A DNA stretch of 64,000 nucleotides from NCBI RefSeq assembly GCF_020921035.1, contig NC_063154.1, positions 7,130,001-7,194,000 on the forward strand, written 5' to 3'. Below the pieces are notes generated by a model that saw only the letters and a program-made list of their open reading frames with translations, had not been told where the DNA came from and made no database searches. The translations under genes and the position numbers were made by a program. Positions within the stretch are counted from its first letter, which is position 1, and each line of letters opens with the position of its first letter. This document shows, piece after piece, positions 2,730 to 60,151 of this stretch. Source of the DNA: Rhodamnia argentea (lineage: Eukaryota > Streptophyta > Magnoliopsida > Myrtales > Myrtaceae).

Positions 2730-3665
2730 GGATGAAAGAACTGTCAACGTGTCAACCCCTTTCAAATCTTAGCCTCTTGAGAATATCTCTCCCAATAAAG
2801 ATAGGTCTGTCGGGCGATGATGACCTAAATGATTTTGGTAGCAATGGAGCATTGAGAAAAAAAAAAGGGAGCCTCTTCTGGATCATTAGCGCTGGTTACA
2901 TGGTAACCTCACCAGAAGAGGGAAGCCTAAGCTTCTGTAAGGGCCTACAGTGCTTGCTCAGAAAATTTTGACAAGCAACATCGATGCGTTCCTTATTTGA
3001 ATGTGCCGGTGCCCTGAACGCACCCCTAATTGCCTTCATATTATTTTTTCTTTCCCTGGGGAAAGGAAAATACTAGAAAGTCTTAGGGAAGCATTTCTCC
3101 TCCTTGCTTTTCGTTGAGCCTTTTGAGGACTTGCCCAGGTCTGATCCTATTTCAAATCTTAGCCTATTGAGAATATCCCACCCAATAAAGAAAAGTCTAT
3201 CGGGGGGGAGGATGACCTAAATGATTTTGGTAGAGCACTGAGAAAAAATGGGCGGGCCTCTTCTGGATCATTGGCGTTAGTTACATGGTAACCTTACCGG
3301 AAGAGAAAAGCCCAAGCTTTTATAAGGGCCTCCGGTGTTTGTTCAAAATTTTTTGGCTAGTTACCTAGATACATTCATTATTTTAACGTGTCGATATCTG
3401 CACACCTTATACCTCTCAATTTCTTACATATTATTTTTTCTTTCCTTGGAAAGAGGGAAATACCAGAAAGTCTTACGAAAGGATTTCTCATTCCTTCTTT
3501 CCGTTAAGCCTTTTAAGAACATGCCTACGTCTAACTGCCTTTCAAATTTTAGCCTATTGAGAATATCCCACACAATAAGGATATTAATGTTCGAGGATGA
3601 TGACCCAAATGATTTTGGTAGTAACAGAGCATTGAGAAAAAAATCTGGCAACATTACCGTTCCTC
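2730..3665. repeat. 390-bp direct tandem array (about 2.4 copies)
   Basis: The phrase TTCAAATCTTAGCC recurs at 2761, 3151 and (as TTCAAATTTTAGCC) 3541, spaced exactly 390 bp each time. The similarity runs through the whole unit. It includes GACCTAAATGATTTTGGTAG, the CTTCTGGATCATT and TACATGGTAACCT phrases, and a CATATTATTTTTTCTTTCC segment. The copies differ by scattered substitutions and small indels, so the array is not recent. The open frames inside it are broken, and I do not recognise a product. Confidence 0.8.
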
Positions 3666-5237: not shown

Positions 5238-6507
5238 CTCTCTATTGACACTTCACGAGGTGTTCTTCGACATAATACAACCGTTTGCACTTGCATGCGC
5301 AATTAATATGTGAAAAGAAAATATAATAGATCGAGAGCCACTTAAAAAAGAAAAACTTTGAGTTATTTTTGGAGTTGCGGAAATGATTGAGGGTAGTTAT
5401 TCTTTAAGTGAAGCAAGTGGGTGCATGGGTTGTAGTTAGAACTTAATTGTTAATTTTTTTTAGGATTTTATTAATGGTAGTTTTGGAAGGAAAATTGAGT
5501 TTTTTGCCTCGATGTTTGGATGATATAAATCTAGATTAGCTGGCCTATTTGGCAAGTTGATAGACTTTTCTGTACCGATTGATGCAGTAAGCAAAAACAT
5601 AAAAATAAATTGTATAGTTAGAAGAGTAAAAGTACGATGAAGATGAACAAGTTAAAATTGGCATGGTCGTCCGCACAGAAAATATGGACATCACCACACA
5701 TATGTATCGCCGGAAGGTCCGGCGCCATTTTGAATAGCATTTGTAAGCGTTCATATTTGCAAAGTCTAAGGTTAAGTTAGAGCTAAGATTGATTAATGAC
5801 ATTAGAGTTGACTCTGAAACCTTCAGTGATGCCGGCTGTAGAAGATTTCGGGATTCGGCCGTAAACAGTTAAGCCTAGTTTATTTACTTGTGTATCATCA
5901 CCATAAACAAAATTATCCCGTGAATCAAGAGGATGAGGCTCTATCCGAAAGCAAATTCCTCTTTTCTCGCTTGTCGAAAGAGGAAAGAACTGCCAAGATT
6001 TCAGCTTGAGCTTAACGAGAGCAACATTCGAATCCATTTGCCTTATCATATACTTGGTGAATTTCAGTATGCCCACTGTGACACATTTATCTAAACTTTT
6101 TTTATAACACAAAAAACATCAAAATTGCACTCAAATTTTGAGGTAAATGCTTCACATGGATAAAAAAAAAAAAATAGTTTGGGGCAAATATATCATACGT
6201 GTATAAGTTTGGGATTTTTGATGTCACAAGAAAAAGTTTGAGGTAAATGTGTTATACTGGTACGAGTTTAGGGTTTTTGGTGTCACAACAAAAATAGAGT
6301 TGAATATGTTATAGTGGGTATAGTTTAGGGTTTTTGATAATTTTTCCCTTACATATTTTACGAGCAATTTATGAAGATGTCATTTGGGTATTTATTTTTG
6401 TTTCCATTTATAAACAATACAATTATCCAATATATTTTTTAGTTTAGTTGAACATTACTTAATTATCATCAATATGCGGTTACATCTAAATAGACAAAAT
6501 ATGTTTC

Positions 6508-7354: not shown

Positions 7355-8821
7355 ATGGCCAGACTCCCATCTGAAGCACCTCGTCCTCCTCCCTCACCGG
7401 GCCACCAATTCCCAGGCGAAAACCAGCCTTATCCACCGGTATCGCAGCCGATGCCGGCATTGCAAGTGCCGTATGCTCCACCATTGCCTTACACGGTCCA
7501 CCAGACTGGCCAACAGCAGGTGAATATGCCCACATTCAACCTGCCACAGCAAGGCAACACTAATACCGGAACAGCCGTGGCCTACCATCAGTTCAACCAG
7601 CCACAAGCTAACAGCGGTAATGTCGCCGGCATGCAATATCATCAGGATCAGTTCCGGCAACAAGCGAGCCACGTGGTGGCTGCGCAGAGTTACAATCCTG
7701 CTCCCGCCTCAGTGTATACCTCCCCAGCAATGTCCCAAAATGTTGGTCCTGCAAGTGCAACATCCACCTACGGGAGTAGTGCTCCTAACAGTTTGATCAA
7801 TCTTAGCAACGGGTCCGTGAATAATTACATGAACATGGAGCAATGGACCACCGGCCTCTTTGACTGCATGCAAGATCCCTCCAACGGTATGTTGTTCTTG
7901 TGCTTTTCTTCTTGAAACATGAAAGCAAACATGTTGATCTGTTCACTTTAAATGTAAATGTAAAGAGGTTTCGTTTGCGTTGTCTTCGCGATTAGGGCGA
8001 AGGAAAAAGAGAACATATTTATGTTCAAAATTCAATTCTTGTTTTTCCTTTCTAGGTTATTATTATGTAATAGCAAGTGTTCGAATACTTTATTTTGCAG
8101 CCTTCATCACGGCACTGTTTCCGTGCATAACTTTCGGGCAGATCGCAGATGTGCTCGACAATGGCCACACGAGTAAGCATACTTGTTTACAAAGTTATAC
8201 GCCATTTGTTTCTTATTATAAGCTAAACCGGAGGTTCGTCTTGTCTTCTATTTTGTTTGACATGAAAATGCAGATTGTGTTACCAGCGGAATCATCTACG
8301 CCTTCTCGCCTTGTATACTGTCCCGGCCATACCGTGCGAAACTGAGGCGGAGGTTCCGGTTGCTCGAGATCCCGACCTCGGATTACATCGCCCATTCGTT
8401 ATTTGAGCCTTGTGCTCTCTGTCAAGAATACCGCGAGCTTAAAAACCGTGGCATTGACCCGGCGCTTGGTATGTAGCACGCTAATGGCGAACTTAATTGT
8501 TACAAGCATATAAGTTATCGATAGTACTGTTACAAGATATCCTAATCAATGAGTATTTTATGCAAAACAAGTGGTGACGGTGTGTGGATCTACGGTTAAG
8601 ATTGTACCTAGGAAGCATTTCCCTATAGTTTAACTATCACGCCATTCTTAGATTTTTTTTTTTTGTAAAATCTTTAGGATATGTATGGCATTCAGGGTAT
8701 TGAGTATTCATATATTGCTGGGTTCATGGCAGGATATCATGGTAATCTGGAGAAACTCCAAAACCAACAAGGTGGTTCTCCGGCAATGATGCCGCCCAAG
8801 AACCAGGCGATGACTACCTAG
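7355..8821 (+). CDS. Divergent PLAC8-domain (PCR/CNR-type) protein with Pro/Gln-rich N-terminus
   Basis: Four exons, 7355-7886, 8101-8172, 8274-8468 and 8733-8821, join in phase to give 295 residues. The family (PLANT CADMIUM RESISTANCE / CELL NUMBER REGULATOR) comprises small Cys-rich membrane proteins involved in metal efflux or organ size. Residues 1 to about 175 are a low-complexity Pro/Gln/Ser/Asn region. The PLAC8 domain follows: FPCITFGQIADVLDNGHT, then YAFSPCILSRPYRAKLRRRF, then [19 protein letters not shown]. Compared with the neighbour at 11557, the CCLTCWCPC signature has become AFITALFPC, and most of the later cysteines ([21 protein letters not shown]) are gone. The two share intron positions and the C-terminal G-[YW]-HGN, so they are duplicates. 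The start was placed at 7355 because the upstream in-frame ATG at 7316 would translate a (GA)n tract. Metal or pore function may be altered. Confidence 0.85.
8535..8640 (+). mobile_element. Short dispersed element (copy 1 of 5), inside an intron
   Basis: It shares 'caatgagtattttatgcaaaac ... gtgtggatctacggttaagattgtacc' with copies at 13793, 47622, 49845 and 51165. This copy lies in intron 3 of the PLAC8-type gene and is shortened at its left end. Confidence 0.7.
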
Positions 8822-10164: not shown

Positions 10165-10864
10165 GGGAAAAGTGTCAAAAAAGTCATAAACCTATTGCAT
10201 TAGTGCCAATTCAATCCTAAATCTTTTTTTGGTGTCAATTCAGTCCTAAACCTTTTGTATTGGTGTCAATTAAGTCCTAAACCTTTTACAATAGTGTCAA
10301 TTTAGTCCTAAAAATTTTACACTTATGCTAATTGAGTCAATTCGGCCAATTTTGATTGGAAATCACTGTCATGGATGTCAATTATCCTACGTGGCATGGT
10401 TGGCGCTAACGTGGATATTTTTTTAATTTTTTTATATTTTAAATAATTTTTAAAAATAATTTTGAAAAAACCAAAAAAATGATTACAAAATTATTTAAAA
10501 TATTAAAATAATATTAAAAAATATCCAAGTTAGCGCTAGCCATCCCATGTAGGACAATTGATGTCCACGTCAGCGATTTTCATGTCAAAATTGGCCGGAT
10601 TAACTCAATTGGTATAAATATAAAAGATTTAGGACTGAATTGGCAACAATACATAAGGTTTAGGACTAAATTAGCACCAATAAAAAGTTTAGAACTTAAT
10701 TTGCACCAATACAAAAGGTTTATGACTGAATTGGCACCAAAAAAAGGTTTAGGACTGAATTGACACTAATACAAAAGGTGTAAGACTGAATTGACATCAA
10801 AAAAAGATTGAGGACTGAATTGGCACTAATGCAATAGGTTTATGACTTTTTTTACACTTCTCCC
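10165..10864. mobile_element. Mutator-type MITE, 700 bp, with 10-bp target duplication
   Basis: The ends are GGGAAAAGTGTCAAAAAAGT and, inverted, ACTTTTTTTACACTTCTCCC. The 10-mer ATTTTTAGGC occurs immediately left (10155-10164) and right (10865-10874). A 9-11 bp duplication is typical of Mutator-like elements. Each arm of about 150 bp is built of near-repeats of 'gtcctaaaccttttgtattggtgtcaatt'. There is no GC-rich core in this copy and no protein. Confidence 0.88.
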
Positions 10865-11556: not shown

Positions 11557-12973
11557 ATGTATAATCACCATCCACAAGAGCAGGAGATGGATTCGCCATC
11601 TCCCGCACCATCGGCGCCGCCGGAACCACCAACGCCACCTTCACCGTTTCGTCAGCGGCCACCACACTCCGGCCAATTGGCCAGTGATTATTTCGCCGAT
11701 GGCATTGATCCGTACATGGAGTTGTATGAACTAAAGAAGGCACGCGAGGACCTGGAGGAAGAACCGGCCCCGATCAGTTCCGGCGGCAACGGCGGCGGGG
11801 CCGGCTTATCGGCCAAACCCTCACCATCTCCAGCCCCTTGGTCCACTGGTCTTTGCAACTGTTGCGACGACTTCAGCAGTTGTACGTACTTTATTCAACG
11901 CCATTCTAAAAATTTTGAAGTTTGAACACCTACTTCTGGTGTTCTATAACTTGCATTCGATTTACCAATAGCCCCATGCACTTGGCTGGAATTACGAACC
12001 AGGGATGGGGGTCAAGGGAAAGGAAGTAGATTGTCTGCGATTACGAGTGGATTAATTAATCCTATGTTGTCTCAATGATCCGATGCAGGTTGCTTAACAT
12101 GTTGGTGTCCGTGCATTACATTTGGGCGAATCGCGGAAATGGTCGATAGGGGATCAACTTGTAAGTCGCCGAGAAACCAGATTCTCATTTTGCACACTAA
12201 CCTAAATGTCATGCTTTGGTCACCCAAAGCTTTCTCTCCACAGCGACATCCATTTTTGCTGTAGAAAAATGTCCTTTAAACTACGCATGGCATTGGCCAA
12301 TGCGAACTAAAATTTATACACAGGCTGATGTAATGTATTAAACAAAGCAATTAAATGAAATTACGGCAGCGTGAGGTGATCTGAATCAAGATAACTGTAT
12401 GGTCCTCACACATGCAGCGTGCGGGGTGAGCGGCGCAATGTATGCGCTGGTAATGTGCGTGACGGGGTGTCCGTGCCTGTATTCGTGCTTCTACCGGTCC
12501 AAGCTGCGGGGACAATACTTCTTGCGAGAGAGGCCGTGCACCGATTGCTGCGTCCACTGTTGCTGCGAGGAATGCGCCCTTTGCCAAGAGTACAGAGAGC
12601 TCAAGAGCCTTGGCTTTGATCCTTCCATAGGTCCCCTCTCTCTCTCTCTCTCTCTCTTGACCGCTCAAGTGTTATTTTGTTGTGGTTCACGAATTAACAG
12701 CAATACGAATACAACGAAATCCTTATTACGACGAGCAACGGTTCTGGAGGAAAATAGGCAGATGTCTTGTATGCACATTTTGATACGTCGAACATGGCAT
12801 GACGATATTGCTTGTTTTTGAAATCTGAAACTTTGCTGTGAAAATTTGATGTTCTCGTATGTCGACTGAGCTTGTGATGGGTTCAAATGCGAATAGGTTG
12901 GCACGGTAACATGGAAAGGCAGAGACGGCTTGGTGCGGCGCCTCCCGGTGTGGAGAAGGGTATGAAGCGGTAG
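11557..12973 (+). CDS. PLAC8-domain protein (PLANT CADMIUM RESISTANCE / cell number regulator type)
   Basis: Exons 11557-11881, 12089-12160, 12418-12630 and 12897-12973 give 228 residues in a closed frame. The first 105 or so residues are Pro-rich and acidic ([19 protein letters not shown]). The PLAC8 domain is canonical: [20 protein letters not shown] starts at residue 109, then a hydrophobic [19 protein letters not shown] segment, [11 protein letters not shown], a Cys cluster ([18 protein letters not shown]), [12 protein letters not shown], and GWHGNMER. The family sits in the plasma membrane as oligomers and affects cadmium or zinc efflux, calcium fluxes or cell number. The exon layout is the same as in the gene 2.7 kb upstream, so this is the conserved member of a local pair. 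The first ATG after the leader is used as start. Confidence 0.92.
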
Positions 12974-16304: not shown

Positions 16305-17485
16305 CTACTTTTCAAAAGAGACGCTTTTTTCACTCCTCATTTGACTTAGACACTCCTCTTCTTTGTGTTTTGACAATATTGACCTTTGTTTGGCCCACCA
16401 CTTCAATTATAACTCTCACTTCTTTTTTATGTTTTTCTTTTCTTTTCTTTTCTTGTGGGTCCCACATTCCTCCTCCTTCGAACTTCTCTATTCTCTCTCT
16501 TGTAGGGAATTCTTTTACGGATCCAACCTTCAACACAATTTTTTTCACAATTCAGAACATTGTATTGCTTCTATGAATTTCAATTTTACAATCCTATGAA
16601 CTCCCACGGCCTTGCATTCATACTAGTGAAGATAGAATACACAAAGACTAGGTAAACATATAATGACAACCTCGACAAGTCCCATAAAAAGATCATCCTC
16701 TTTGTCGGCGCCGGCCCTCGCCTCAAACTATCAAGTTCTTGAGATGAACATACAGCCGCATCATCATCAGCATATCCAGCAGAGATGATGAGCTGGACAT
16801 ATTTGGCAAGTTCTTTGGCCAAAACAGTTCTCATGCCACCCACACCGGACAACCAGCCGATGGCGGAGTCAATAGGGCCGAGCACATCCTCGAACTCCAA
16901 AGGATTCTTTGAGGGGGTACAAATCAATCCAGTTGTGCTCTGAAATGCAGCGATCAAGCGACAAGGGTGGCAGTGGGACCGGTGGGTCGAAGATGGACCA
17001 CGGTTTGGCCTTGATGAAGGCAGACGAGTTAATTCTCTTAGGGAGCCAAGTTGGGGACTTCGACCACACGCAGTGGTTGTGGAAAGAAGACTAGGAGGAT
17101 GCTTATGATGGTAGAATGAGCATGGAAGATTTCATGGACAAATCTTGGAAGCCTATCACTAGGAAGATCAAGGATCCATCGTGTGTTCTTAGACCTGACA
17201 GGTTCATATGCTTAATTGAAACTCTTTGACATGAACTCAAATTCATGAACAACAGGACGAGAATAGGGACACAAAAAAGACGGAAAGAAAGAATTGTCTC
17301 TAACAGAGAAGTAAGAAGAAAAAGGATGGTGGGACCAGCAAAGAAAGAAAAAGAAGAAACAAAACAAAAAAAAAGTGAGAGATGTTGTGAGCCACACAAG
17401 GGTTAATATGATCAGAACATAAAAGTAAGGAGGGTCAAAAGAAGAGTGGAAAAAGCGTGACCCTTTCAAAATCGTGCGCTCCATT
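16305..17485. mobile_element. Inverted-repeat element carrying captured CSLD gene pieces (Pack-MULE-like)
   Basis: Two arms of about 240 bp face each other, 16305-16545 and 17235-17485. Read outward-in, both contain CACTC[CT]TC[AT]TTTGAC, a TTTTTTA/CTTTTT-rich stretch, 'ccca(c)attcc', 'acttctct' and 'ttctttt.cg'. Between them lie plus-strand fragments of a cellulose synthase-like D gene (see the pseudogene entry). Inverted arms around a piece of a host gene is the layout of a Pack-MULE or similar gene-capturing element. I could not fix the outermost base or a target duplication, so the superfamily is inferred. Confidence 0.6.
16755..17215 (+). pseudogene. Fragment of cellulose synthase-like D (CSLD), N-terminal region
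   Basis: CSLD proteins make cell-wall glucan or mannan in tip-growing cells. Two blocks of their characteristic N-terminus can be read on the plus strand in shifting frames. First, SSRDDELD near 16755-16785 and, after a shift, PPTPDNQPM at 16836-16862. Second, GGSKMDHGLALMK and GSQVGDFDHTQWLW at about 16980-17085, then FMDKSWKPITRKIKDPSCVL at about 17130-17190, just before the first membrane segment would begin. The zinc-finger part that normally lies between these blocks is missing. A stop codon interrupts WKED*EDAYD. The family assignment rests on remembered conserved CSLD motifs and is strong because five blocks occur in the right order. Confidence 0.75.
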
Positions 17486-23224: not shown

Positions 23225-23757
23225 TTTTAATAGAGTTCATATCACGAAAAACTCTAAACTAGTACATATGTGACAAATTTATCCAAACTATTTTTTTGAC
23301 CATCAACAATCCTAAACTGGTACACTTATGATAAATTTATCTCAAACTATTTTTTTTACCACCAAAAATCATAAACTGGTACAACTGTAATAAATTTACC
23401 CCAAACTAATTTTTTTACCACAAAAATCCAAAACCGGTACACATGTGACAAATTTGCCCTTAGTTAGTTTCCGTTAAATTGAGTTAATACCACAAAAAAT
23501 TCGAAATTGATACACATGTAACGTACAGATGGTAATACCCAACAATTGTCATATGTTATCAAACTCAAGAATTCGACGAAATTTAATGAAAATTAACGTA
23601 TGATAAATTTGTAACAACTATATATCGTTTGAGGTAAATTTGTCACAGATATATCAATTTGAAATTTTTGATGGTCAAAAAAATATTTTAGAGTAAATTT
23701 GTTATGGGTATACTAGTTTGGGTTTTTTTGGTAGTATTAACCCTTTTTAATATAAGT
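23225..23757. mobile_element. Foldback MITE, 'aaactagtacat' family
   Basis: The left arm ('taatagagttcatatcacgaaaaactctaaactagtac') is mirrored by the right arm ('gtatactagtttgggtttttttggtagtattaaccc'). Inside are three or four near-repeats of 'gataaatttatctcaaactattttttt'. The family is related to the element at 58963-60151. Confidence 0.65.
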
Positions 23758-24144: not shown

Positions 24145-25869
24145 ATGGCTCCCAAGTCCAACAGCACCGAAGGTAATCGATCGATCGAACTCAGAATTAC
24201 GTCCCTGCCCGTAGATAGATCTTCCTCGAGTTCTTGAACCATCGATTCTCTCGTCTTTTGTGTGTCTGATTCGGAGTTCTATTCGTCATTTCCATCTGCC
24301 TCACTGTTGATTTCAGTAGAATCGCGATCCTTGTTTTGTCATCTGCGATTACTGATGTAATGCTTCGCTCTTCGATGCATTTTTTTTTTTTGGTTGCAGA
24401 AATCGTTCTCAACTTCGTGAATGAGGTAATCTATGTTTTTCCTGCTCTGGCAGTGCTTGAATCCTTGCTCAATCGATGACGTCTACGCTGAAAACAGCGC
24501 CGGGGTACGATAAGGTTGTCACATAGAGCTGGTTAGGTTTCACTTCGAATCGTGGAAGATTGGGGTTTCTAATTGTTTTGGTGCATAGAGGTAGAATGCT
24601 TGTGCTCTAGGTTAGGCTGAGACTGGATTGTTGACGCGACTTTTACTCGAATTAGCGTGGCTCAGTTCAACTTGAGAGGTCATGGTCGCTTTTTTTGTTC
24701 TGTTCTCTAGATTAATTGTTCTTGATTCTCAACATGTTTTCAACCACAAACTGTTAAATGCTTATTGAAAGTTTATGATGGAAGTACGGATCGCAATGGT
24801 CTCGTCGGGGTACGCTATGTTCGACATTGATTTGACTCGTCGTCTTGCTGATGAGGATAAATCCTTTTTCCCCTCCCGAACCAGCAAAACAGGCCGTTAA
24901 ATTCCCAAAATGTGGCTGATTCTCTGCAAAAGTTTAACCTCAAGAAGGCGGCAGTCCAAAAGGCATTGGATACTCTTGCTGATAACGGGCGAATATCTTC
25001 TAAGGAGTATGGTAAGCAGAAGATATACCTCGCTCGGCAGGACCAGTTTGATATTCCAAACAGTGAGGAGCTCAATCAGATGAAGGAAAAAAATGCCGGT
25101 TTGCAGCAACAATTTGAAGAATATAGGAAGGCAATCAGTGAGCTTGATGGAGGTGTCACCTCTATTCCACTTGCTAGTCTTTGCTCAGTAGCAATTGTTG
25201 GTCTTTCCTTTTGTTTTTCGTTTAAAAGGACTTGTTCAATGGAAGTGATTTACCTCATATGGAGCAATAGTAAAGGTGGTCTACAAAAAGCCCTGGAGTA
25301 CTGGATCTCACTTGAATTATGTTCTTGCTGCAGAAATAAAAGCTTTGCAGTCAAATCTTACTCTCGAACGGATACTTGACAAGGAAACTGAACTCAGATC
25401 AGAAGTGAGACATTTGGAAGCACTCTTCTATTAAATTCTTCCACACAAAAGTTCTTTTAGTTGATACTGGGACTTTGTCTAAATAATTCCATTCCAGGTG
25501 AAGGCAATGGAGGAAAAATTGGAGAAGCTGCGTGGAGGTGTCATGCTTGTGAAACCGGAAGAGCGAAAGGCTGTACAGGATATGTTTGCAGAAAAGATAA
25601 GACAGTGGAGAAGGCGTAAGCGGATGTTCAAAGATCTATGGGACACAATAACTGAGAACTCACCCAAGGATCTGAAAGAATTTAAGGTTATCTGCTTTGA
25701 TTTATTCTCTAGAACATACTTTCGAGGGGGTAATCAAGTCCGAAGTCTAAACTTGCTAGTGTTCGTACAGGAGGAACTAGGACTTGAGTATGACGAAGAT
25801 GTCGGTGTCTGTTTGCAGTCTCTCTGCAACTTACAGCAAAGCGGCAAGAAGCGGCCTAGAAGCCAATAA
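24145..25869 (+). CDS. HOP2: Homologous-pairing protein 2 (HOP2/AHP2, TBPIP family)
   Basis: HOP2 forms a heterodimer with MND1 and stimulates RAD51/DMC1 strand invasion, so that homologous chromosomes pair in meiosis. Six exons (24145-24172, 24400-24425, 24885-25152, 25334-25404, 25498-25686 and 25771-25869) join to 226 residues, which as far as I remember is the length of Arabidopsis AHP2. Visible parts are an N-terminal winged helix (EIVLNFVNEQNRPLNSQNVA, LKKAAVQKALDTLADNGRIS, YGKQKIYLARQDQ), a coiled coil from about residue 85 to 160 (NSEELNQMKEKNAGLQQQFE, ERILDKETELRSEVKAMEEK), and the C-terminal block VKPEERKAVQDMF, WRRRKRMFKDLWDTITENSP and ELGLEYDEDVGV. Intron 5 (84 nt) has no in-frame stop, so its retention would add 28 residues without breaking the frame. 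The upstream promoter contains Site II motifs. Confidence 0.95.
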
Positions 25870-37909: not shown

Positions 37910-37930
37910 ATGGCGATGGAAACAGAGTGA
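37910..37930 (+). other. Upstream ORF in the E2 leader
   Basis: ATG GCG ATG GAA ACA GAG TGA: six codons and a stop, about 145 nt ahead of the main start. It is included in the mRNA only if transcription starts upstream of 37910. A (CT)n tract at 38038-38070 lies between the two. Confidence 0.4.
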
Positions 37931-38035
37931 GGCAGCTCCAATTCTCTGCTCACTTCCAGGTTCCAACCAACCTCCTCCTCGTCCTCTCCGCCCGTTTCTC
38001 TCTCTCCCTCCCTCTTCACCTCCACCCTTTCCTCC

Positions 38036-38072
<37 letters not shown>

Positions 38073-38075
38073 ACG

Positions 38076-41000
38076 ATGGCCTCTTCCCTTCTCTCTCCCT
38101 CCTCCGCCACCGCCAATCCCGCCAGCACCATCTCCTTCTCCTCCTCCCTCTCCACCCCGCTTCCCTGGCGTCCCTCCTCCGCATTCCCCCGCCGCTCCGG
38201 CGGCCGGAGATCCCTCTCCGTCCAATCCAAGATCCGCGAAATCTTCATGCCCGCCCTCAGCTCCACCATGACAGAGGGCAAGATCGTCTCCTGGGTCAAG
38301 TCCGAGGGCGACATCCTCTCCAAGGGCGAGAGCGTCGTGGTTGTCGAGTCCGACAAGGCTGACATGGACGTGGAGACCTTCTACGACGGCATCCTCGCCG
38401 CCATCGTCGTCCCCGAGGGCGAGAGCGCCCCCGTCGGCGCCCCCATTGGCCTCTTGGCCGAGACCGAGGATGAGGTCGCCGAGGCCAAGGCCAAGGCCGC
38501 CGCCAAATCGGGCTCTTCTTCATCTTCTCCTTCCAGTCCTCCCGCCTCCCTTGCGGCTGAGGCGCCCGCCGTCACTTCAAATCCCGCTCCGGCAATTGCT
38601 CAGCCTCCGCCGAAGCCAACTGCTCCGGCAGATGGACCGAGAAAGATTGTGGCGACTCCCTATGCCAAGAAGCTCGCCAAGCAGCACAAGGTGGACATTA
38701 ACAAGGTGGCAGGTAAGAATTTTGTTCGATACCAAATTATCATAACTCATGACATGATAGAATGTGCTACTTCACTATGCAGAGTGAGCCATTATTGGCT
38801 AGATTATCCATGGAATTGTCAGTTGTCATTGATATGGTATTTGGCACGATTGACTTTGGCTGATCATGTGTGCTGGCAGGTACTGGCCCGTACGGAAGGA
38901 TTACACCGGCAGATGTGGAAGCGGCTGCTGGAATACAGCCATCCAAGCCGGCTGTAACAGTTACTTCCGCTCCAGCGGTTGCAGCAGAGGCAGCCCCAGC
39001 TGCTGCAGGTCCAGCAAAATCTGCTGCCCCTGCTCCGCCTCCACTTCCAGGATCTACAGTGGTGCCATTCACCACAATGCAGGCTGCTGTGTCAAAGAAC
39101 ATGTTGGAGAGTCTCTCGGTACCATCTTTTAGAGTCGGATACCCAGTGACAACTGATGCGCTCGATGCTCTCTATGAGAAGGTAGATTCTGCTCTCCGCA
39201 CCCTGAGAATGCTACTTCTAGGTCATGATTTATAATGAGGAATATAGTTGGGGTGATTGATAACAAAGTGCATAAGCATGTATCTTTTGTTAGTGTGTGT
39301 CAATCTTGATCTAATTTTATATCCATTGGCATTTGGTAAGATAGGTCCACCTGTTCGATTGTTGCTTTTTATTGGTAAAAAGTCTCTTGTTCACTTTGGA
39401 TATTTAGGTGAAACCAAAGGGTGTGACCATGACCGCTTTATTGGCAAAGGCTGCCGCAATGGCACTTGTTCAACATCCAGTTGTGAATGCCAGTTGCAAA
39501 TACGGGAAGAGCTTTACTTACAATAGCAACATTAATATAGCTGTTGCAGTGGCCATTAATGGCGGGTTGATCACACCTGTGCTTCAGGATGCAGATAAGG
39601 TTTGATTTCACGACCGTGCTCTGCCTTTGTTCCTCTTGATAAAATGAAAAGCAAATGTATTGATTTGATGTATTCAATTTTCACATATCAATTTGGTTTT
39701 ACTTTGTAATATTTGGTGCAGTTGGATCTCTACTTGCTGTCTCAAAAATGGAAAGAGCTGGTGGAGAAAGCCCGCTCAAAGCAACTTCAGCCACATGAAT
39801 ATAACTCAGGTTTAGCCATTCAATATGTCTTTTGTTTCTCAGTTCTATGCATGCAACTGTGATAGTTGATAATGTCTATGTCATTATTCTTCAAGAATCA
39901 GGTTTATGGTTTTTCTGTCTGGTCGAATGTTTTAGGCACATTTACTCTTTCCAACCTGGGCATGTTTGGAGTGGACAGATTTGATGCAATTCTTCCTCCA
40001 GGCCAGGTGAGTCACACGGTCATGATTTCCAACTTTAGGGAACTGAGGACTTTATTAAAGTTGTGAGAAACTTCTTAGCTGTCTGGTGAATTTTTTTCTT
40101 ATATTTAGGGGGCCATCATGGCTGTGGGAGCATCGAAGCCAACTGTTTTAGCTGATGCAGATGGATTCTTCACTGTCAAAAGTAAAATGCTGGTAAGTGT
40201 TCGCATCTTACCTGCAATCTTCCAAATTATCCAGTGTATTATGTAATGAAGGCTCGATATTTGTGATTAATAAGCATTGCTATACCGCATGAGGCGTGAT
40301 TATACATCAGGCATTGAAAATTATTATTATTATTATTATTTTTAGTCAAAAAAGCATTGAAAATTAGTTTACAAGTGATATAGAATTGGGGTCCTCATTT
40401 ACTTGCTAATATACCTGTTGTTGTTGCCTTTGTAAGACTATTGGGACTTGATGGTTTCTTATCTCAAATTTTCAATTTTTACTCTTAAATTGAAAATTTT
40501 GGGAAAAAAAAATCATTGTTCGCAAATACCAAGATGAAAACTTAGTTTGAAGCCAATAGGAATGGGTCTAAAATTCCAATCCCTTTTTGGAGCCAAATAC
40601 CATGACAATAAGTCGGAGAGAAAAGAAGGGTATAGTTCAATGGATGATATTGAATAATAAACATGGGTTGCTTCTTGTCTCCAAGAAGCTTTGTTCCAAC
40701 CGGTGACGGGCAGTCTAGTGCCTGTGATAATCCTATATGTAAAGTCGTACCATAATTTTATCTTGTTCTGCATAATTCTTTGTAAATTTTATCTTTGTAT
40801 TGGATATCACACAGTATAGACTGGATATAGGTGCTGTCCTAATTTGTCGCGTCCAAACTGATTAATATTCACAGTTGGAGTTTCAATTTGATAACTACTT
40901 GTGTCATGTCTGTATTGTCACTATACTGTCAGAACTTAAATGTCCTTACTCTTGGAACCTAGATAAAATTGAAGATTAAGTGTTGAAAATGTATGTACTG

Positions 41001-47976: not shown

Positions 47977-50900
47977 CTAAACTTTTGCGAGCTCAACCGC
48001 GGCTTTATCTTTATCTTCTTCGTCTGTGACATCCACAGCTTCCACAGTGTGGACCTGGACCGGCTTCATCGTGTAGAACTTGGCCACACAAACGTAGTAC
48101 AACAGATTCAGAGCCTGCAACAACGTCAGCACCCAGTAGAAGTACTCCAGCTTCCCTCGGTTCAGGTTGCTGTCCGGAAGCCAATTGGACCCATCAGGCC
48201 CGGCGCTGTACTTGTGGACCAGCGAGACCATCAAGGTGCTCAAGTAGTTCCCGGCCGAGATCGACGTCCAGAACAGCGCTGTTGCCGTGCTCCTCATGCT
48301 CTCCGGGGCCTGGTCGTAGAAGAACTCAAGGTGCCCGATTGCCATGAACGCCTCTGCGATCCCGTGCAGCGCGTACTGGGGCATGAGCCAGAAAACCGAC
48401 ATGGGTATCATGGCATGCGGCAAGTCCAGCAGCCCGTGGGCCTTCGCGTAGTGCTTTCGCTTGACCTCGACGAAGCCTGCGACGAGGGTAGCCAGGATGG
48501 AGATGAAGTATCCGATTCCCATGCGCTTGAGGAAGCTGATCCCGCGGTCGAGGCCTGTGAAGCGGCGGGCCACCGGGACGAGGAGGCGGTCGTAGGCGGC
48601 TATAGTGAGCAGCATGGCAGTCATGGTGAAGACCGACATGGAGGCCGCAGGGATCTGGAAGGAGCGGCCGAGGTGGCGGTCCACCATCTTGGCCTGCTGG
48701 AGGGAGAAAGTGCTCTGCTGCGCGTAGGCGGTGTAGAGGATGATGCCGGAGGCCCATATCGGGCCCATCCGGATCATCGTCTTGAGTTCTTCCACTCGGT
48801 GGACCGTGTTCAACCTCCATACGTTAGGCGATTTCACATCATCCTCTGGAGTGACGATGGCCGCTTTGTCGAGGAACCTGGAAGTTTGATCAGCCAATTA
48901 GTGAAACAAATAAAAATAAAAAAAGGCCAGTTAGGAACATAATTATTACGTGGTAGAGCAACATTGTGAACTTGATGGTGTGCAAGGGCTTAGTCCTTTA
49001 ATTTGTCCCGGCTTAACCTATGTAGTTACTGTACTGTCTTCTTCGGAGATCTGCCCCTTGTCTGTCTGTTTATGCGAAAGCTACCGAACATTAGTTGAAA
49101 AATGATGGAGGAGCAAGCGTCCTTGTACAGTTCAGACCATCCATGCAAACGAAAAACGACAAGCGAGAACCGAGAGACAGAGACCCTTCATAATAACGAA
49201 GAGAGAGAGAGAGACCATATTGCTCTGGACCATCTTCGTACATTTCTCCAGAGGCCACATGCATTCACGTGTGCAAACGATTCAAGATTCGGTTCTTCCA
49301 AGTGGGATTTCCTAACGTGTGGTCGTGGAGGAACCCAGCATGAGCCAGTGGTCTCGCTCGCGTGGTCCGATGAGAGCCCACAAGCTTTCATCTTCACGCC
49401 ATGGACGACTCGTCAGAGACCAAACCGAGCCGAGACGTCCAAAATGAAATGCAGGACGCGCCCGGCCGATATAATCTCGGTGGGTGGGTTCCTGTCTTGA
49501 TTCATGGAATTTGTCCGGATTCCTTCTTTTCGAAATGAATTTAGACGCCATCTTCCTTCAGAAGAGAATTTCTTTTATCTGGACAGTCGTGATAAACTTT
49601 TTGACGCTGTATATCTCATGGATCATGAATTCAAGCTTCGGCTGCTTAGTTTTGTCGTGGAGTAATCGACTGTGTCAAGATACATCATCAGTGATTTCCT
49701 TCGCCCTTTGGCTTTTTCTGGGCTAATCCGATTGTCTTCTTCATTCAATAAGAGAGGTTAGATAACCTAAGTAGTTTTACGGGGCGTCCAATCATTAGGC
49801 TGTGGAAACTTCCACATCGAAAACTAAGGATTTCCTTAGGAAGGCTGCGATCTAACAGTCGACAAGATCTATTACTTATTTTTGATCACACGATCTCCCA
49901 ATCAATGAGTACTTTATGCAAAATACGCGGTGATAGTGTGTAGATTTACAATTGAGATTGTATTATACCTGATAATATTATCAAATAAGCATTTTCTATT
50001 TATCTATTTTACATGTCCATATATAAGGCCACATCTGTTATCATCTTAAATTAACATAAAATAAATTTCATCAATCATTGCTTATACTGTGAGGTCCGCG
50101 CGAGCCTTTAATGTCATCAATTGCGCGACTATGGATTTTCAAGTTCTTTGTCTAACCTAGTAGAGTTTGACTACTGGAACAACTAGGTTGGCTTATCATT
50201 GGTTTTGCCTAAGAAAGGTTACGAAAACCGTTTGAGCGTTGCATTGATCTAAAATATATCTTAGTATAACATGATTAAATTCGCAATAATTTGATGATTT
50301 TCTTCCTTCTTAGCAAGCACAAACATTGACATAGAAAGAGAGAGAGAGAACTTACTTGACATGGTTGGTGTGGACAAGCTTCCCATCGAGCGAAATTGAG
50401 GCATCGAGCTCCTCATTCTCGTACAACAATGTCGAATCCGTCACCATCGCTACCCTCCTCTTCCTGAACGAAGCCACGCACACCTGCAACAAACGGGTAA
50501 ACGGGCTGCCTGCTGGATCCATCATCCTGTACAGCCGGTACCCGCCGATCAAGGTGATGACCGAGAGGAACATCAAGAAGGTTGGAATCCCGAGACCCCA
50601 GCCCCATCCGATGTAGTCCTGAATATAAACGAGCACCGTCACTGCCAGCAGTATAGACACCCCCATCACGAAGTAGTACCAATTGAAGTATTTCCACGTC
50701 TTGGTGGACTGCTTCGGGTCGTTCGGATCGAATTGGTCCGCCCCGAAGGCGACCACGCAAGGGCGGATCCCTCCCGACCCGATGGCTCCGAGCAGGAGGG
50801 CTGTGTAGAGGACGGCAAGCTGGCCGCCGCTGGCCTCTTGGCACCTTTGGTCGCCCTCGCACGGGGGAGGCCTCAGCTGGGGGAGCACGGCGGATACGGT

Positions 50901-52077
50901 CAAAAGGGTCATTCCCTGTCCGCAAAACGAGGACAAATTATTGCTCAATAATGGAATGGACGGTGGTCCTACAGGGCGGTAAAGTGTTTATTCGATGATT
51001 GCGTGCGGTTTAATGAGTGGGTTTGACATAAACACCGAAAGACGTAAGGCTCATGTTTATTTACTCAAGGAAACCATGACGAATCCATCCATCTGCCCGG
51101 AGTGAACGATACCCATGGACTCCAATCATGCTCCCAAATCATTGAGAAATCAAATGAGAACTGTTAGTCTGTCAGTCTGATAGTAATATTAGTTATTTTT
51201 TACCATACGATTTCTCAATCAGTGATTATTTCATGCAAAACACGTGTGAATCTACGATTGAAATTGTTCCATCCCTAATAGTACTATCGAAAAAGCATTT
51301 TCATCAAATCGATGTTGCCTCCTTTTTTGTAACCTTATCGTCAAAATCTTCTCAGTTTTCTCCATTTTTTCCCCAGAAGCCCTGAGCTATCTTAAGGGTT
51401 AATCATATGTGGATCTCTTTCCTGCGAGTCGCTTTCATAAGTAGAGTGTATACAGTAGAAAAATGCAAACAAGTTAACAAGTTTTGCATACGGTCCTCGA
51501 ATCCGTCTTGTTTATGTCGCCATTATTATCGTAGCATTTCCTACAAAAAACAAAGGTCACTTCCCGAACAACTTCTACTTCTTCTCCAACTTTGTCTTAA
51601 GATGCTCGCGATCTCGTTTGTGTCGGCTCTCTCTATCACACGCGCAAATCATACACAGAGAGACAAAGAGTAGTTGAACTCACGACTACATAGATAATGG
51701 AGGCGACGCTGACGGTCCAGAAGCGCCCGGCGTAGGCGTCGGCGACGAAAGCGCCGATGAGTGGCGTGAGGCTGGCGGTGCCACCGAAGCTGGTGACGGT
51801 GTTGGCTGCTTTCGTCAATGGCATGTGGAGTTGGGCCGTCAAGTAGCTTAGCATGTTCGTGTTGAAACCCACCACCGCCAACTTATCGCATACCTCATTC
51901 GCTACACCAATCCATTCAACGTAATCAAACAAACATTCCAGAAGATTAAGAAGAAGTAGAAGATGAGGATGAGGATGAGGATGATGATGATGAGAGCTTG
52001 ATTGACTCACAGAAAATGAAGGGCATGGTGACCATCCCTCCCTTTTTCCTTCCTCTTCCATGGCTTCCTTCCTCCAT
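47977..52077 (-). CDS. NPF3.1: NRT1/PTR-family transporter, NPF3.1-like
   Basis: NPF proteins are 12-helix proton-coupled carriers; NPF3.1 members are reported to move nitrate/nitrite and gibberellin. Four exons on the minus strand (52011-52077, 51684-51901, 50356-50915 and 47977-48877) give 581 residues. Marks include MVTMPFIFSNEVCDKLAVVG, TPLIGAFVADAYAGRFWTVS, GAIGSGGIRPCVVAFGADQF, KTWKYFNWYYFVMGVSILLA, the cytosolic loop FLDKAAIVTPEDDV, YAQQSTFSLQQAKMVDRHLG, FYDQAPESMRSTATALFWTS and NWLPDSNLNRGKLEYFYWVL. The close fit to NPF3.1 as I remember it supports the subfamily. The usual ExxE[K/R] proton-coupling motif reads EVCDK (residues 25-29), so its second Glu is Asp. The start at 52077 was chosen because the nearer ATG at 52061 is out of frame with MVTMPFIF. 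Introns 2 and 3 each hold one copy of a dispersed element. Confidence 0.96.
49845..50003 (+). mobile_element. Short dispersed element (copy 4 of 5), in NPF intron 3
   Basis: 'cgatctcccaatcaatgagtactttatgcaaaatacgcggtgatagtgtg ... attgagattgtattatacctgataatattatc', aligned with the copies at 8535, 13793, 47622 and 51165. Confidence 0.8.
51165..51307 (+). mobile_element. Short dispersed element (copy 5 of 5), in NPF intron 2
   Basis: 'GTCTGATAGTAATATTAG ... acgatttctcaatcagtgattatttcatgcaaaacacgtgtg ... attgaaattgttccatccctaatagtactatcg'. The ends, GATAGTA and TACTATC, are inverted. Confidence 0.8.
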
Positions 52078-53551: not shown

Positions 53552-53898
53552 GGGAGAAAATTGTCTAAAAAGTCGTAAATCTATTGTACGGCAGCCAATT
53601 CGATCCTAAACATTTAAATTGTGCAATTTAATCCTAAACCTTTTGACGATTTGTCAATCTAATCCTAAATTTTTTAATTGTATCATTTCAATCACAAACA
53701 TTTTGACGGTTTTCCGATTTAATCCTATATATTTTGATAATTTATCAATATAATCATTTCGGTCAATAATCAAAACATTAAGTTTATGATTAAATTAATA
53801 AAATATCGAAAGATTTATGACTAAACAAACACAATTAAAAAATTTAGAATTCAATTGGCCTCCATATAATAAATTCGGGACTTTTCCGACAATTATAC
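53552..53898. mobile_element. Short 'gtcctaaac'-type MITE without core
   Basis: The left arm ('gggagaaaattgtctaaaaagtcgtaaatctattgta') is mirrored by 'ataataaattcgggacttttccgacaattat'. Inside are repeats of 'aatcctaaatatttt'. It is related to the Mutator-type MITEs in this window. Confidence 0.6.
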
Positions 53899-58962: not shown

Positions 58963-60151
58963 GGAAAAATATCACCAAAAATCCTAAATTATATCGATAG
59001 TTATAAATGTTGGGGTTCGGGATTGTCAAAACGCAGCGGAATATAATTCTACACCCAAACCCTAGACAGGATCCATGCGTATATTGAAATCGATAGAAGC
59101 TCATGACGTACCTTTTTGCAGATCGAAGTTAAATTAACGATCGATTGTGTGTGGATTAGCGCCCTAAGTGTTGCGCCTCTACCGGTGTCCACACACACGA
59201 ACCGAAGTCTCCAAATCCAAGTGCTAACTTGCAGATCTTGGTACTTCTCCTCCTTGATTGCCTTCTTGATCACCGAGACTCTCTCAAAGATCTCTAAACA
59301 GAGAACGACTCTCTGCGTTTTTATTCTCATCAACCTCTCTAGGGTTTTTCCACGTCTTTATATACGCGTCAATATTTACGCGTAATAAAAGAAGTGGGGC
59401 CGGGCGGCTCGGGCCCGCCAAACCGACTATCTCCAATCGTGCGTTTCATCGTTATCTCATAACACGCACGATTGCATAGATATTTAGAATAAGAGAATAA
59501 ATTAAAATCTACTTCTTAAGTAGATCAAGGCACGGAGAAAATATAAACTCGGTTCGCTATAATGTGCAACCCCGTAGGTTCACTAGACATTAGCAGTGTA
59601 CCCAAAACCCTTTTGGCCCACAAGTCATAAGCGGTCTCTAACAACACATTATGACTACCTAAGTATAGTGAAGGTCGTTTTTCGACACAATCTAATCCAC
59701 AACTAATGTTAGAGCATCAACGTTGATTAGTTCCTAGGGCGGACCGCTAACAATAAATTTATCCCAAAATTTTTTTGTGACAAAAAAAAATCTCAAATTT
59801 GTACTTATGTAACACATTTGCCCCATACTTATATCATTGTGATATATTTATCCCAAATTTTTATTTGTGACACCAAAAGCCTCAAATTTGTATATGTGTG
59901 GCCATTTTTACATAAAAAATTGAGGTAAATGTGTCACATGTCTACAAGTTCGAGATTTTTAGTATCACAAATAAATAATTTAGGGTAAATGTGCCACAGT
60001 AGTATAAGTTTGAGGTTTTTGGTGTCACAAGAAAAAATTTAGGGTAAATATGTCATATGGGTACAAGTTTGGAGTTTTTTGTGTTACATAAAAAATTTAG
60101 AGTAAATGTGCCGCAGTGGGCATAGTTTAGGATTTTTGGTGACTTTTTTCC
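58963..60151. mobile_element. Foldback MITE split by a solo LTR
   Basis: The left end GGAAAAATATCACCAAAAAT and right end ATTTTTGGTGACTTTTTTCC are inverted copies. The inside consists of repeats of 'ggtaaatgtgtcacatgtctacaagttcgagatttttag' in both orientations. The element is interrupted at 59008-59752 by an LTR; without it the MITE would be about 440 bp. Confidence 0.75.
59008..59752 (-). mobile_element. Solo LTR of a retrotransposon, 745 bp
   Basis: It begins TGTTGGGGTTCGG and ends CGGACCGCTAACA (TG..CA; the termini TGTTAG/CCAACA are inverted). It is flanked by ATAAA on both sides (59003-59007 and 59753-59757), a 5-bp target duplication. On the minus strand it holds a TATA box (CGTATATAAAGAC, about 59355) followed by an R/U5-like stretch. 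There is no internal retrotransposon DNA, so the coding part was probably lost by recombination between LTRs. Confidence 0.85.

Follow-up and report, generated by a model that had tools for sequence, protein, structure and literature searches.

A decayed Pack-MULE of Rhodamnia argentea that very probably captured the 5' end of a CSLD gene lacking a zinc finger

Mu killer-type silencers are inverted-repeat silencers, and known hairpin silencers have an inverted copy of the target itself in the stem. KI-MULEs are Mutator-like elements (MULEs) that carry a ULP1-like protease gene. Long terminal inverted repeats (TIRs) and target-site duplications (TSDs) of 9–11 or 8–11 bp are features of MULEs (PMC3310237, PMC4858842), and KIU-carrying Vandal elements, which have a host-derived gene beside the transposase, are named in a review (PMC13317346). 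Pack-MULEs are described as carriers of gene fragments (PMC8903248), typically with TIRs of 100–500 bp and a TSD of 9–11 bp in which up to two mismatches are tolerated (PMC3310237). A full-text search for literature pairing Pack-MULE with cellulose synthase-like found nothing, and a search for Pack-MULE with Eucalyptus found only single passing mentions of the two words. For CSLD and transposons, nothing on a captured CSLD was present among the titles and the opening parts of the abstracts that were listed.

We analyzed a stretch of 64,000 nucleotides from Rhodamnia argentea (C5:7130001-7194000), referred to here as the window, together with the genome it comes from (346.7 Mb in 74 contigs). 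The genome matches lay on contigs numbered C1 to C11, nine of which are 25.7–37.3 Mb long, and positions without a contig are those of the window. The segment 16318–17462 is an old, non-autonomous Mutator-like element. It is a clear-cut Pack-MULE of a fairly common sort, very probably one that captured the 5' end of a CSLD gene without a zinc finger. In its long TIRs, 9-bp TSD, non-autonomous state and host fragment with a recognizable parent, the element resembles the Pack-MULEs described from rice and other plants, and it shares with them the mostly pseudogene fate of the captured sequence (PMC8903248, PMC3310237). It differs from them in having a relative that shares the capture and retains the remains of a transposase, and in that the donor-like gene is a zinc-finger-less CSLD. 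The arrangement is also similar to that of MULEs with a host-derived gene, as host sequence is found beside a transposase (here in the relative L071), but in this case what was captured is a 5' fragment that has decayed and shows no sign of constraint. The element is thus of a known kind, with the transposase-bearing relative as a modest twist. What it offers is a gene-fragment capture that is well documented within one genome, by a donor-like gene, a junction, early common deletions, a transposase-bearing relative and decay.

Table 1. Positions in the window of the element's parts and of the duplication at its ends.
Feature	Position	Strand	Basis
Left target-site duplication, TTTTCAAAA	16309–16317		8/9 match to 17463–17471
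Left terminal inverted repeat	16318–16492	+	Alignment to right arm; recurrence elsewhere in genome
Captured sequence upstream of CSLD start codon (start approximate)	16528–16662	+	blastn to C1 gene, multiple alignments
Captured CSLD exon 1, decayed, ATG at 16663	16663–17201	+	blastn, alignment, peptide landmarks
CSLD intron 1 start, GT donor side	17202–17243	+	Aligned to C1 gene intron; exon end from reading frames
Right terminal inverted repeat	17302–17462	-	Arm alignment
Right target-site duplication, CTTTCAAAA	17463–17471		8/9 match to left duplication

An earlier note on this DNA, made from the sequence alone, had described a transposon-like element with inverted arms of about 240 bp. The arms are real, since the alignment of 16321–16492 with the reverse complement of 17302–17458 scored 103 compared with 35 for the best of 200 dinucleotide-shuffled pairs, but they are about 160–175 bp long (left 175 bp, right 161 bp). 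The left TIR sequence recurs at other places in the genome. The two ends of the element are bordered by a 9-bp duplication with one mismatch, within the 8–11 bp that the earlier note had suggested looking for. Among random position pairs (3x3 offsets), 34 of 20000 equalled the window duplication, a frequency that applies to ends first chosen from a wider scan. A perfect 9-bp duplication, TTAGGACAA, flanks the copy at C3:17.83 Mb (L056), and duplications of at least 8/9 were found beside the TIR ends in four of the 16 sequences scanned: the window, L056, L058 (a copy on C2) and L063, which is a relative with the TIR and without a CSLD match. Because the wide scan also returned flank matches with at most one mismatch off the paired TIR ends in L059, L060, L066, L067 and L068, the evidence for a duplication comes mainly from the perfect 9 bp of L056 and from the position of the duplication in the window.

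Apart from ~90 bp of unassigned sequence beside the two TIRs, the interior of the element is mostly CSLD sequence. There was no match to PF10551, the MULE transposase domain, in C5:7146318-7147462 among the 150 scored of 474 candidates, in keeping with an element that has no transposase of its own. The other Pack-MULE features examined are also present, these being long TIRs, a TSD, TIRs in common with transposase-bearing MULEs, a host-gene fragment and several insertion sites.

The host-gene fragment was identified at both the DNA and the protein level. Comparison of 16586–17243 with the CSLD gene on C1 by blastn gave E=1e-95 with 512 of 738 columns identical (69%), and a tblastn search with the protein of C1 exon 1 recovered the element at E=7e-26. 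Five peptide landmarks of the CSLD N-terminus were located on the plus strand, spread over three different frames: SSRDDELD (16775–16798), PPTPDNQPM (16836–16862), GGSKMD (16981–16998), GSQVGDFDHTQWLW (17041–17082) and DKSWKPITRKIK (17137–17172). The capture spans ~0.8 kb, beginning ~145 bp ahead of the ATG of the C1 gene, taking in exon 1 and extending into intron 1. Its upstream part at 16528–16585 is defined solely by multiple alignments and by two other copies, L067 and L071, in which the blastn match to the C1 gene starts at gene position 2562; the direct blastn match of the window begins at 16586. As both intron and upstream sequence are present, the fragment was copied as DNA and not from spliced RNA, and a processed pseudogene is ruled out. 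The main claims of the earlier note, a transposon-like element and a captured piece of CSLD with its landmarks on the plus strand, are therefore borne out, the first by the TIRs, the target duplication, the genome family and the transposase-bearing relative described below, and the second by the match to the C1 gene in DNA and translated searches, the intron sequence and the existence of a donor-like gene.

The same note had interpreted the zinc-finger segment as deleted from the element. Five genes were read as CSLD based on a cellulose synthase domain search and their translations, one on each of C1, C3, C5, C7 and C9. A 119-residue zinc-finger stretch of the C7 gene matched the C3, C9 and C5 genes (tblastn, E up to 1), and the same search gave no match in the C1 gene or in the five elements supplied (the window, L056, L060, L071 and L072). 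The zinc finger is indeed absent from the element, but the C1 gene is also without it, so the absence was inherited, and loss during capture is ruled out. A missing domain, in other words, need not have been lost at capture. The C1 locus itself (L051, C1:2197500-2205500) is a CSLD gene with an exon 1 that does not have the zinc-finger stretch seen in the other four CSLD genes.

The C1 CSLD gene is the closest gene in the genome to the captured fragment. However, at an identity of ~69–71% to the copies, the C1 gene may itself be the donor, or the donor may have been a paralog since lost, with the C1 gene as its nearest relative still in the genome. The G+C content of the captured gene stretch is 56.8%, versus 47.6% for the whole C1 locus; the Pack-MULEs of rice and maize have been described as favouring GC-rich sequence (PMC3310237).

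A DNA search of the genome with the element gave 87 matches among the 40 scored of 107 candidates. Copies in which exon 1 is mostly kept (class A) occur at eight places: the window, C3:17.83 Mb, C10:13.26 Mb, C8:10.99 Mb and four places on C2 (21.02–21.27 Mb). The four C2 places (L058, L059, L061 and L062) are copies of one stretch, about 89–96% alike with neighbours about 50–115 kb apart, and represent a local segmental duplication in which the class A element is interrupted by about 490 bp. Their common flanks indicate one insertion that was later duplicated, and four separate insertions are ruled out by the mutual match of these flanks. This gives five independent class A insertions (window, C3, C10, C8 and one on C2). 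Relative to the C1 gene, deletions of 17 bp and 39 bp are common to all eight class A copies, and thus to the five independent insertions, which argues that all class A copies descend from one already damaged copy.

In a second class of copies (class B), the sequence jumps from gene position ~2687–2714 straight to ~3247 and then continues further into the intron. Three of these, L064, L065 and L068, have nearly identical left flanks and, for this reason, may be one insertion. When the captured part of L071 was used as the query (36 of 36 candidates scored), 37 rows were returned: one was the C1 gene, 12 fell in seven of the eight class A places, and 24 fell in 23 other places, including a fragment of uncertain class at C6:20.375 Mb. 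Overall, about 32 places outside CSLD genes carry pieces of the capture (eight class A, 23 others and L072), not all of which are independent insertions. L072 (C5:20.416 Mb) was found by protein search and has no left TIR within the fetched stretch; it retains the 17-bp stretch missing from class A and continues into a right end of the L071 type (68% over 456 columns).

The junction between TIR and CSLD sequence, together with about 13 extra columns without a counterpart in the gene, is common to four class A copies, seven class B copies and L071, so that all 12 of the element sequences aligned have it. This bears on another reading of the locus, in which a CSLD pseudogene, processed or duplicated, would by chance have unrelated inverted repeats on either side. 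The fragment has decayed as pseudogenes do, but its intron and upstream sequence argue against a processed copy, and TIRs of this family are found at many places in the genome. As the junction recurs, a chance arrangement is already contradicted, and we consider the likelihood of this explanation to be negligible.

Within the Pack-MULE family, L071 (C6:19405812-19409615, 19.41 Mb) has TIRs at both ends and a class B CSLD piece by its left TIR. Between the TIRs there is a match to the MULE transposase (PF10551, 68.7 bits, minus strand) that has decayed, with one internal stop. The 9 bases flanking L071 match at seven positions, as judged by eye. Five of the seven class B copies were compared with L071 and have right ends matching its right end, with internal breakpoints that differ; for the class B copies L069 and L070, which were not among the five, the right ends failed to align with other copies. 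In addition, three more TIR matches (C4:21.04, C7:6.39 and C9:19.42 Mb) are 1.35 kb from PF10551 matches, an association by coordinates only. With 41 TIR and 150 PF10551 matches, the chance expectation is about 0.07 such pairs within 2 kb, the TIR search having scored 40 of 83 candidates and the transposase search 150 of 474. The presence of a decayed transposase between the same TIRs in at least one of the ~32 places indicates that the capture was probably first carried by an element with a transposase, from which internally deleted forms then spread.

From these observations we infer the following order of events. A Mutator-like transposon, probably still with its own transposase, would have taken up, beside its left TIR, a copy of ~0.8 kb from the 5' end of a CSLD gene without a zinc finger. 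The element would then have multiplied by transposition, with a transposase of the L071 type acting on the TIRs, and its derivatives would have lost different internal parts in several deletion lines. In class A, the damaged exon 1 would have been kept and the transposase lost. In class B, most of exon 1 would have been lost, with the exon end and more of the intron being kept.

Relative to the frame of the gene, the window copy has four frameshifting indels and two stops, in addition to the 17-bp and 39-bp deletions. Frameshifts are present in all eight class A copies, and the ATG is still there in all eight. Class A copies differ from one another about equally at the three codon positions (chi2 p 0.22–0.97, for five of 10 possible pairs that are not mutually independent), whereas the comparison of class A copies with the gene shows a third-position excess (p 0.002–0.03, five pairs that are not mutually independent). 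With an excess relative to the gene and none between copies, there are signs of constraint on the gene but not on the copies. The captured fragment is a pseudogene that is under neutral drift and no longer yields a CSLD protein. The intact ATG of the class A copies and an open frame of 181 aa on the minus strand (16586–17131) could be taken to suggest a chimeric gene that is expressed and has gained a new function. However, no Pfam match was found for that frame at E 0.01, and the universal frameshifts of class A and the lack of codon-position bias in the CSLD frame when copies are compared also count against such a gene, which we regard as very unlikely.

The captured pseudogene and the elements around it also have a reduced CpG content. 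The CpG observed/expected ratio is 0.48–0.66 in the eight copies (whole elements) compared with 0.91 in the gene stretch, the compositions of the compared stretches being different. In the five independent copies, derived C-to-T or G-to-A changes were found at 14 of 108 CpG sites and 89 of 1294 other C/G sites, with A/T transitions at 73 of 2200 for comparison (all raw counts). This shortage of CpG is suggestive of past cytosine methylation of the copies, and hence of their silencing as transposons.

The earlier note had also proposed a silencing role for the element itself, in which read-through RNA would fold through the arms and give small RNAs against cell-wall synthase genes. The arms are predicted to pair well, as the arm duplex had an energy of -152.3 kcal/mol versus a mean of -72.8 and a lowest value of -92.1 for 100 shuffles, and when the fold of the whole element was predicted, 128 of the 175 bases of the left arm were paired with the right arm. 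However, the longest unbroken paired run is 15 bases (plus) or 18 bases (minus), and the best ungapped 21-mer of each arm is 3–5 mismatches from each of the five CSLD genes (raw counts). Like Mu killer-type silencers, the element has inverted repeats around an interior, but known silencers hold an inverted copy of their target, and the stem here is the TIR and not an inverted CSLD copy. Because the CSLD part would be in the loop, silencing of CSLD by an arm hairpin is not supported, and we consider a silencer of this type extremely unlikely. The arm hairpin as an agent against CSLD genes was ruled out on the grounds that the stem has no recognizable CSLD sequence, and this part of the earlier note is not upheld. 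The presence of inverted arms on either side of a gene piece does not in itself create a hairpin directed at that gene.

Small RNAs could possibly arise from the internal captured fragment of the Pack-MULE instead of its arms. According to a review, captured fragments in maize are sources of siRNAs that can silence donor genes (PMC13317346), and 24-nt small RNAs have been described on genic MULEs of rice (PMC4858842). By analogy, 24-nt siRNAs from the fragment in the element might act in trans to silence or methylate the CSLD gene on C1. A run of 26 nt is identical to the C1 gene, 75 of the 671 21-mers of 16560–17250 are within two mismatches of it (two of 671 for the C5 gene and none for the C3, C7 and C9 genes), and the decay of the copies is methylation-like. 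However, the copies are ~30% different from the gene, and the CpG ratio of the gene stretch gives no suggestion of long methylation, so that trans-silencing appears unlikely on the sequence evidence. We are more doubtful still of a wider scheme, in which a transposase-bearing MULE lineage would have acquired and propagated the upstream region, exon 1 and splice donor of CSLD, and ~30 copies would feed siRNAs or decoy transcripts acting on one CSLD paralog. If this scheme were correct, there would be an intragenomic conflict centred on the zinc-finger-less CSLD.

An Rfam scan of the window gave 0 matches at gathering thresholds. Elsewhere in the window, six separate tandem arrays were observed (6186–6338, 10171–10312, 10603–10847, 23243–23455, 53596–53755 and 59912–60141), with units of about 57–60 bp, some with a 31-bp half unit, and with words in common such as CCTAAA or its complement. 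In addition, 2760–3620 consists of 2.2 copies of a 390-bp unit in tandem. On the plus strand, TBPIP/Hop2 winged-helix and LZ3wCH domains in open frames at 24861–25869 mark a Hop2-like gene, and a segment with biotin/lipoyl and E3-binding domains at 37911–38957 looks like an acyltransferase E2-type exon. A PLAC8 domain is present at 12375–12821 (plus strand), as is a weak match, below the Pfam cut-off, at 7938–8345 (plus strand). A POT/PTR2 transporter gene with two open frames is located on the minus strand at 47977–50987.
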